Assembly (NCBI RefSeq): GCF_000956175.1
Contig: NZ_CP011070.1
Coordinates: 1,358,147 to 1,422,146, forward strand
DNA length: 64,000 nt
Direction: 5' to 3'
Source of the DNA: Nitrosopumilus adriaticus
GTDB taxonomy: Archaea; Thermoproteota; Nitrososphaeria; Nitrososphaerales; Nitrosopumilaceae
The position numbers and the translations under genes are program-made. Shown here in pieces: positions 28,387-30,219 of the stretch (position 1 is the stretch's first letter; each line of letters starts with the position of its first letter). The notes beneath the pieces are model-generated. The model was given only the letters and a program-made list of their open reading frames with translations, ran no database searches and was not told where the DNA came from.

Positions 28387-28451
28387 AATCATCATAATGA
28401 TTTTGCAGAGTGATGATTAGGTCATCTGAATATTATGTAGAGAAATGACCT
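28387..28451. repeat. nested inverted repeats upstream of the 35-aa peptide gene
   Basis: AATCATCA (28387-28394) is the exact complement of TGATGATT (28411-28418). GATGA/TCATC (28412-28416/28422-28426) flanks TTAGG. AGGTCAT (28419-28425) complements ATGACCT (28445-28451). No reading frame explains them. Either protein sites or a folded RNA is possible. Confidence 0.55.
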
Positions 28452-28500
28452 GGGGTATCTGACTGCATCATTGGTTACGTCATAATCACCTGAGTATTAA

Positions 28501-28523
28501 TAGTACGGTACCATACCGTACTA
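28501..28523 (+). promoter_or_regulatory. perfect 10-bp inverted-repeat operator
   Basis: TAGTACGGTA and TACCGTACTA are exact complements separated by CCA. The element lies between a TATA-like TATTAATA (28495-28502, slightly overlapping) and ATG 28525, covering the expected transcription start. This is where an archaeal repressor would block polymerase. The cognate factor is unknown. Confidence 0.75.
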
Positions 28524-28524
28524 T

Positions 28525-28632
28525 ATGATTCAATGTGAATATTGTACAAGAGGGTTTATCGAAACAGCAAATGGGTTGGCTGAAAAGACCTTTCATGAGT
28601 TACTACATGAACCAACTGTTGTAAACAAGTAA
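28525..28632 (+). CDS. 35-aa CxxC microprotein under operator control
   Basis: A short frame directly after a perfect palindrome and a TATA-like box at the leaderless distance (27 nt). The product begins MIQCEYCTRGF, so one CxxC pair, followed by a helix with two His (KTFHELLHEP), enough for a C2H2-type zinc site. I do not recognise a family. Translation is inferred from promoter geometry and the sensible composition. Confidence 0.58.
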   Translation: MIQCEYCTRGFIETANGLAEKTFHELLHEPTVVNK

Positions 28633-28692
28633 CTCATTACATTTTTTATTTTATACCCAACTTTTTTATCATCATTTTTTTATTTACTGTAT

Positions 28693-30219
28693 ATGGCAGC
28701 TAAAACTACAAAGAAAAAGACATCAGCAAACCCAAAAAAAGTTGCCAAAAAAGTTACAAGAGAACCAACACCTTCAGCACTATTAAAAAAAGTAGCATCA
28801 GTTTCAGATTCGAATAAGGCATTACAAAAAGAGATCAAAGTAATGTCAAAAATTTTTGGAGAAAATCAAAAAGTTCTCTTATCAATGAAAGGTATGATCG
28901 ATACACTAACATCAACATTAGAGTATATTCAAAAGCAATCAAAACAAATCAACATCATAGAAGATGATACTCAGAAACTATATGCAGGATTAAACCAAGT
29001 TAGAACACAATCAAATCTTGTAAGTAAGATAAATGAACAAACTGTAAAACTCCAAGATGAGATTAATAAAATTTCAGAGATTCAAAAAACGACAAAGCCT
29101 CAAGAATTATCTCAGCAAGTACAAGATAGTATGAATTCAATTAAGAATAATTCCCAAATGATAATAAAAATTGCACAGAGAATTGACGAAGTAAGAGACG
29201 ATATGAGAAAAGTTTCTGGAAAAACAGATTCATTTTTAGAGATTAGTTCTGAGATGAATAAACTAAAAAATAATCTCGAAGAGATCTCCGATAAAACTGC
29301 AAAACTAGATACCGGAAATCAAATCATAGAAAGCCTCAAGCAAGAATTTGAAAGAATTGCAGAAGGTGCAATCTCGACAACAGATCTTAATGCAGAATTA
29401 GAAGCAATCAAGATAACAATTGATTCAATCTCTTCTAAAGCATCAAAAATTGATTCACTTGGAGGAGTTATTGATGGACTCAAACAACAATTTGAGACAA
29501 TCTCTGAAAATGCAAAATCTGCTGAAAATATCAGTCTACAAACTATGAAGGATTTAGGAGGAAAAATAGATAAAATCGAGACTGAAATTGGCGGATTATC
29601 GCAGAGAGCAGATTCCACAGCATTTGTTGGAGAAGGGCTCAAATCAGTTCAAGAAGACATCTCAAATTTCAAGCAGAATGTATTTGATAAGACAAATAGC
29701 ATTGAGCAAAAAATAGCCTCAGCATCAGATATTCTAAAAAGACAAGATGCCTCAACTGCAGAATTTCATAAAAAATCAGATAAATTATTTGAAGAAATTC
29801 AATCAATCAAAAGTGTCACAAACAAGGCTACTAGTGATTCATCTAAAGAGATGATGGCATTGTTAAAACTTTCAGAATACCAATCAAATGTTAGAATAAA
29901 TTCTGAATCAAAATATGGCGAACTAAAAGACATTGAAAACATGGCAGCACAAACTGCAGACATTGTAAATCTATTTGATAGAATATCCATAGAGTCAGGT
30001 GAAAAAATTCCACTACCTCAAGAAGTAAGACAATGGGCAGTAAGTAAGATGCTAGATTGTGCAGACAAGTGGGAAGTTAGGTTCAGTGATGTTTATTCCA
30101 TTTTAACTAATGCAATAGGCAGAGATTTACTAAAAGAAATAATTAGAGTTCAACAAGTAAGAGACATTTATGGAATTAGAGCAGTAGATGAATTAAGAAA
30201 GGATCTAAATATTTCTTAA
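28693..30219 (+). CDS. long coiled-coil protein with basic N-terminus
   Basis: A 508-aa protein. A Lys/Ala/Pro-rich tail (residues 1-28, DNA- or membrane-binding in character) is followed by ~370 residues of heptad-rich coiled coil (e.g. EINKISEIQKTTKPQELSQQ, DLGGKIDKIETEIGGLSQRA) and a C-terminal helical globular part (~420-508, QEVRQWAVSKMLDCADKWEVRF). There are no transmembrane helices. The coil resembles the cytoplasmic bundle of chemoreceptors or SMC arms, but no signature is present. A structural or nucleoid role is a guess. Confidence 0.8.
   Translation: MAAKTTKKKTSANPKKVAKKVTREPTPSALLKKVASVSDSNKALQKEIKVMSKIFGENQKVLLSMKGMIDTLTSTLEYIQKQSKQINIIEDDTQKLYAGLNQVRTQSNLVSKINEQTVKLQDEINKISEIQKTTKPQELSQQVQDSMNSIKNNSQMIIKIAQRIDEVRDDMRKVSGKTDSFLEISSEMNKLKNNLEEISDKTAKLDTGNQIIESLKQEFERIAEGAISTTDLNAELEAIKITIDSISSKASKIDSLGGVIDGLKQQFETISENAKSAENISLQTMKDLGGKIDKIETEIGGLSQRADSTAFVGEGLKSVQEDISNFKQNVFDKTNSIEQKIASASDILKRQDASTAEFHKKSDKLFEEIQSIKSVTNKATSDSSKEMMALLKLSEYQSNVRINSESKYGELKDIENMAAQTADIVNLFDRISIESGEKIPLPQEVRQWAVSKMLDCADKWEVRFSDVYSILTNAIGRDLLKEIIRVQQVRDIYGIRAVDELRKDLNIS

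Follow-up and report, generated by a model that had tools for sequence, protein, structure and literature searches.

A conserved palindrome as the putative operator of a small radA-associated regulon in Nitrosopumilaceae

How radA is controlled is, to our knowledge, understood for few archaeal lineages. According to published reports, Archaea possess no LexA and mount no coordinated SOS response (PMC1224876, PMC5626843). UV induces radA1 of Halobacterium as well as a small zinc-finger protein (PMC1224876), and radA1 shares the motif TTTCACTTTCA with three other UV-B genes, the regulator not being named (PMC2556686). In Sulfolobus, Sta1 activates a radA paralogue (PMC2556686), and an Orc1-2 damage network has been described in Sulfolobales (PMC10470591).

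Here, we describe a motif, TACnGTA-n3-TACnGTA, that recurs at the promoters of radA, of a winged-helix gene and of two tiny Cys/His protein genes in the family Nitrosopumilaceae, starting from a palindrome in a 64,000-nucleotide stretch (the window) of the 1.80-Mb genome of Nitrosopumilus adriaticus. The sites, their promoter positions, the gene set, its conservation and its co-occurrence were read directly from genome sequence; we interpret the palindrome, with a probability of roughly 0.7, as an operator serving a small regulon built around radA and an autoregulating winged-helix repressor. Nitrosopumilaceae are among the most abundant ocean archaea, and they would thereby acquire one candidate repressor along with a defined operator and the set of genes that carry it. 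The two tiny protein families, i.e., the 35-aa peptide and a CxxC...CxxH protein, match no curated family and would gain a functional context.

Of the described systems, the LexA/RecA SOS regulon has the same layout: one palindromic operator over the promoter is common to a recombinase gene, the gene of a repressor that controls itself and genes of small proteins. The recombinase gene is represented here by radA, whose promoters carry the site (lost in at least one genome, G178), and the regulon comprises four to five targets. In contrast, the self-cleaving S24 peptidase repressor of the LexA system has no counterpart: according to Pfam, NCBIfam and the structural model, the 115 residues of the candidate hold a winged helix alone and no S24 peptidase domain. 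Given the absence of this LexA-defining domain, we do not class the regulon as an SOS system. The Halobacterium motif likewise occurs at a few promoters within one archaeon, that of radA included, but it is non-palindromic, differs in sequence and lies 5′ of the TATA box, ~50 bases before the start, whereas the radA promoters read here have TACnGTA-n3-TACnGTA 3′ of the TATA box and not TTTCACTTTCA upstream of it. Sta1 and Orc1-2 also exemplify archaeal transcriptional control of recombination or repair genes; however, they are activators with other DNA motifs and gene sets. Thus, no compared system matches the present motif, gene set or regulator, and a limited literature search found neither a description of the motif nor a Nitrosopumilus damage transcriptome or start-site map.

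The features of the locus, together with the candidate regulator gene, are as follows.
28404-28467, plus strand: box C/D guide RNA candidate, a neighbour outside the regulon, recognisable in 30 of 30 loci
28495-28502, plus strand: TATA-like box TATTAATA, read in the sequence, which extends into the left edge of the palindrome
28500-28524, no strand: putative operator palindrome ATAGTACGGTA-CCA-TACCGTACTAT, read in the sequence and conserved in orthologous promoters
28525-28632, plus strand: 35-aa gene (product MIQCEYCTRGFIETANGLAEKTFHELLHEPTVVNK), conserved and with a coding pattern of variation
28640-28672, plus strand: conserved T-rich tracts 3′ of the stop codon in an alignment of 30 loci, a probable transcription terminator
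28693-30219, plus strand: coiled-coil gene, also found 3′ of the peptide gene in other genera
G000:C1:1271249-1271593, outside the window: winged-helix gene (115 aa), candidate repressor

A sequence-only reading of the window had pointed to a perfect 10-bp palindrome over the start of a 35-aa CxxC gene. This was confirmed: a perfect inverted repeat at 28501-28523 widens to 28500-28524 with 11-bp arms around a 3-nt loop, and it encloses the conserved core TACGGTA-CCA-TACCGTA (28504-28520). The ATG of the 35-aa ORF (28525) follows immediately 3′. The centre of TATTAATA lies ~26 bp 5′ of this ATG, the usual archaeal TATA spacing for a leaderless transcript, so that the transcript is predicted to be leaderless and the palindrome to lie between the TATA box and its start. 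ATTAATA is kept in nearly all of the 30 loci in the alignment of peptide-gene promoters, and the stretch from -26 to -1 shows 95% mean pairwise identity as compared to 88% for the ORF. Markov simulations (spacer 0-4) predicted 1.07 inverted repeats with arms of at least 10 and 0.13 with arms of at least 11 per 64-kb window, against one observed; the palindrome by itself is therefore only mildly unusual, and it is its conservation that decides. We looked for it 5′ of the orthologues and found it in every promoter read: TACnGTA-n3-TACnGTA directly precedes the ATG in 30/30 genus loci, and a further eight genera (nine in total) show the same core before each orthologue read, in one case with a 4-nt spacer. 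This lends strong support to the earlier suggestion of a repressor-type operator over the start of a tightly regulated CxxC/His microprotein gene.

Its conservation marks the peptide gene itself as real. Orthologues with 79-100% identity occur in 31 of the 37 genus genomes (its own included), and a profile search detected the peptide in 44/45 family genomes; in G030, an AOA genus member (91% complete), neither peptide nor motif was detected. Variable columns of the ORF fall on codon positions 1, 2 and 3 in a ratio of 10/9/29, which is how coding DNA varies. Four residues, C4, C7, H24 and H28 (C-x2-C-x16-H-x3-H), are invariant in an alignment of 25 sequences and also kept in divergent genera, and the small Cys/His proteins of the regulon may bind zinc. 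The ligand set resembles that of the Cys2-His2 zinc finger, for which the pattern is C-x2-4-C-x12-H-x3-5-H; however, about 12 residues separate the Cys and His pairs there as compared to x16 in the peptide, which has no match to Pfam zf-C2H2, and we discarded assignment to the classical finger. A [2Fe-2S] segment of Fer2_2 resembles the peptide in its C-x2-C followed by a G-F/hydrophobic stretch, but the second Cys pair of that domain is absent, and the match (E 0.002, 18.7 bits) stays below the gathering cut-off of 30.3, so that this assignment also fails. The AlphaFold model of the peptide was uninformative (pLDDT 57). As for the downstream gene (28693-30219), likeness of its product to SMC/Rad50 models is coiled-coil only.

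A whole-genome pattern search returned exactly four TACnGTA-n3-TACnGTA sites in the N. adriaticus genome, located before the peptide gene, radA, the winged-helix gene and a gene termed CYVCGKG, which encodes the small CxxC...CxxH protein (50-65 aa) and is divergent from trpE. Across 40 genus genomes, 150 motif sites were found, whereas the reversed control gave 5; almost all motif sites belong to the same four promoters, in the genus as in other genera; indeed, 60 regions retrieved around sites contained these four genes with few isolated exceptions. All four targets were seen in the genus and in genera g23, g24, g29 and g30, while in g22, g25, g26 and g28 the promoters read were those of the peptide, winged-helix and radA genes. 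In several target promoters that lack the exact n3 version, the half-sites are separated by an n4 spacer. RadA is a RecA/Rad51-type recombinase, identified by TIGR02236 above cut-off; in this genome (L031 1517-2737) it ends in a long acidic tail that contains VEATVEAPE repeats in tandem. A fifth, weaker site precedes the gene of a 128-aa Cys/His protein (CxxC-x4-C-x-H; loci L036, L073, L372, L375 and L376), which is divergent from a gene whose 297-aa HTH product matches B12-binding_2. This site is exact in some species and has one degenerate half in several genomes, including that of N. adriaticus. Further members were not apparent: at two mismatches, matches in the N. adriaticus genome did not exceed the control, and additional one-mismatch sites fell in known promoters, in one coding sequence or on the fifth site, revealing no new target. 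Counting exact sites, one-mismatch versions number 5-7 per genome versus 11-20 for the reversed control (G000, G121, G066 and G073), as if stray motif sites were avoided. The expectation that palindrome and peptide gene belong to an undescribed regulatory unit thus held, by sequence, as far as the existence of such a unit is concerned, but fell short of its size, since radA, the gene of the winged-helix protein and another small Cys/His gene bear the same site.

The position of the sites relative to the promoters is suggestive of repression. In the radA promoter (TTATAAAG followed by a site that runs into the ATG), at the winged-helix gene and at the peptide gene, the site occupies the interval from TATA to start. 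At the 128-aa gene it lies 3′ of the TATA box, and at the CYVCGKG gene it adjoins the upstream edge of CCTTTATA, i.e., the BRE side of TATA, where TFB would be expected to sit. With sites at TATA or between TATA and start, a bound protein could block initiation, and this geometry leads us to infer that the operator-bound protein would act as a repressor.

The best candidate for this protein is the 115-aa winged-helix protein. The site adjoins the start of the gene for this protein in all 79 of the 79 named contigs that could be read (Nitrosopumilus, Nitrosarchaeum, Nitrosotenuis and Nitrosopelagicus), at exactly -16 in 77, and the same 177 kb of contigs held no site elsewhere. As in autoregulated repressor regulons in general, the site stands at several promoters beyond chance and in relatives; if the winged-helix protein is indeed the regulator, the site is also present at the promoter of the regulator itself. 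The model of the protein shows a winged helix preceded by an N-terminal extension (pLDDT 81, pTM 0.66). The nearest solved folds are those of the DNA-binding proteins pNOB8 AspA, a plasmid centromere-binding protein also solved with DNA, and then archaeal viral F93, Sso10a-2 and YodB, followed by HypR. The two closest, AspA and F93, share 17-19% identity over 70-80 residues and, unlike the 115-aa protein, lack the N-terminal extension. A viral origin of the gene was rejected, as no viral relatives were found. An association of the locus with defence was rejected too, the matches being weak and coiled-coil or HTH only.

On this basis, we propose a circuit in which a dimer of the winged-helix protein would bind TACnGTA-n3-TACnGTA, block basal transcription factors or RNA polymerase, and so repress its own gene, radA, the 35-aa peptide gene and the CxxC...CxxH gene, with the weaker site possibly extending repression to the 128-aa Cys/His gene. 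A simple dimer does not explain the n3/n4 spacer variation, nor a third half-site at the winged-helix promoter (TAAGGTA-n3-TACCGTA-n3-TACGGTA; L033 1491-1517, corresponding to G000:C1:1271223-1271249), which follows a 10-bp period, overlaps the TATA-like region and is also present in three other genomes. A signal would lift repression, and because RadA, of the RecA/Rad51 family, is the sole known enzyme in the set, we favour DNA damage or replication stress as this signal. Nitrosopumilaceae might then possess a minimal SOS-like circuit of independent origin, in which DNA damage makes the winged-helix repressor release radA along with two or three tiny zinc-type proteins that may modulate RadA or sense damage; we put this forward tentatively, at somewhat short of even odds.

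As the sequence-only reading suggested, the same regulon and binder could instead respond to a metal (zinc, copper) or to redox state, with RadA induced as a stress side branch. This is a serious rival, although less likely than not, since the remaining outputs, i.e., the peptide, the CxxC...CxxH protein and the 128-aa protein, are all Cys/His proteins. In addition, Cys80 of the winged-helix protein is invariant, and two of its fold neighbours, YodB and HypR, sense redox state. However, among the targets found there was no metal transporter or redox enzyme with the motif at its promoter, and since the winged-helix protein is highly conserved throughout, a single invariant Cys tells little. Given the presence of radA, we regard DNA damage as at least as likely a signal.

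It is less probable, and in our view unlikely, that the sites are genuine operators of this regulon bound by another transcription factor, with the winged-helix protein merely a target. A site at a regulator's promoter may equally signify a cascade, and the protein is only weakly similar to characterised families. Arguing against such an arrangement, its gene always comes with a site, and no competing candidate binder was found among the targets common to all genera. Moreover, motif (two to six sites per genome in an order-wide search), winged-helix gene and peptide occur together in 44/45 family genomes; the exception, G112, lacks all three and keeps one half-site before radA. Other families are likewise without the three, single sites in 7 of their 106 genomes being no excess over control. 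As the family is one clade, this co-occurrence amounts to few independent events and is support rather than proof of the assignment, under which the winged-helix protein would itself bind the operator as a repressing dimer.

The perfect arms and short loop at 28500-28524 could also be taken for an RNA hairpin in a 5′ leader or a DNA cruciform, a highly improbable reading that we rejected: central half-site bases are unpaired in 24/34 CYVCGKG, 22/101 winged-helix, 10/60 peptide and 5/33 radA sites while TACnGTA is kept, which argues for conservation of half-site identity and not of complementarity, and for most targets the predicted start coincides with the site or lies downstream of it. Although a palindrome of this kind is not very rare in 64 kb, a chance occurrence before a spurious ORF has negligible probability and is refuted by the conservation of site and ORF across nine genera and the recurrence of the site about four times per genome.

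The sequence-only reading had also mentioned further inverted repeats that precede the peptide gene. These repeats exist, but most belong to 28404-28467 and not to the operator; this stretch is best read as a separate gene, a box C/D guide RNA candidate. It is closed by a terminal stem (TGCAG/CTGCA) and contains boxes C, D′ and D, a degenerate C′ box and a guide complementary to rRNA, i.e., the features by which such RNAs are recognised in sequence; the D′ box is altered in 2 of the 30 loci. Rfam searches over the region gave far sub-threshold matches only, the candidate being absent from Rfam, and these, being snoRNA-like, pointed to the box C/D reading. The D guide has a 9-nt match to TTACCCCAGGGATAACAGGCT of the organism's own 23S rRNA, near position 2530, which, for a match of this length within about 4.5 kb of rRNA, is suggestive but not conclusive. 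Finally, 28404-28467 folds better than shuffled sequences (z -3.4).
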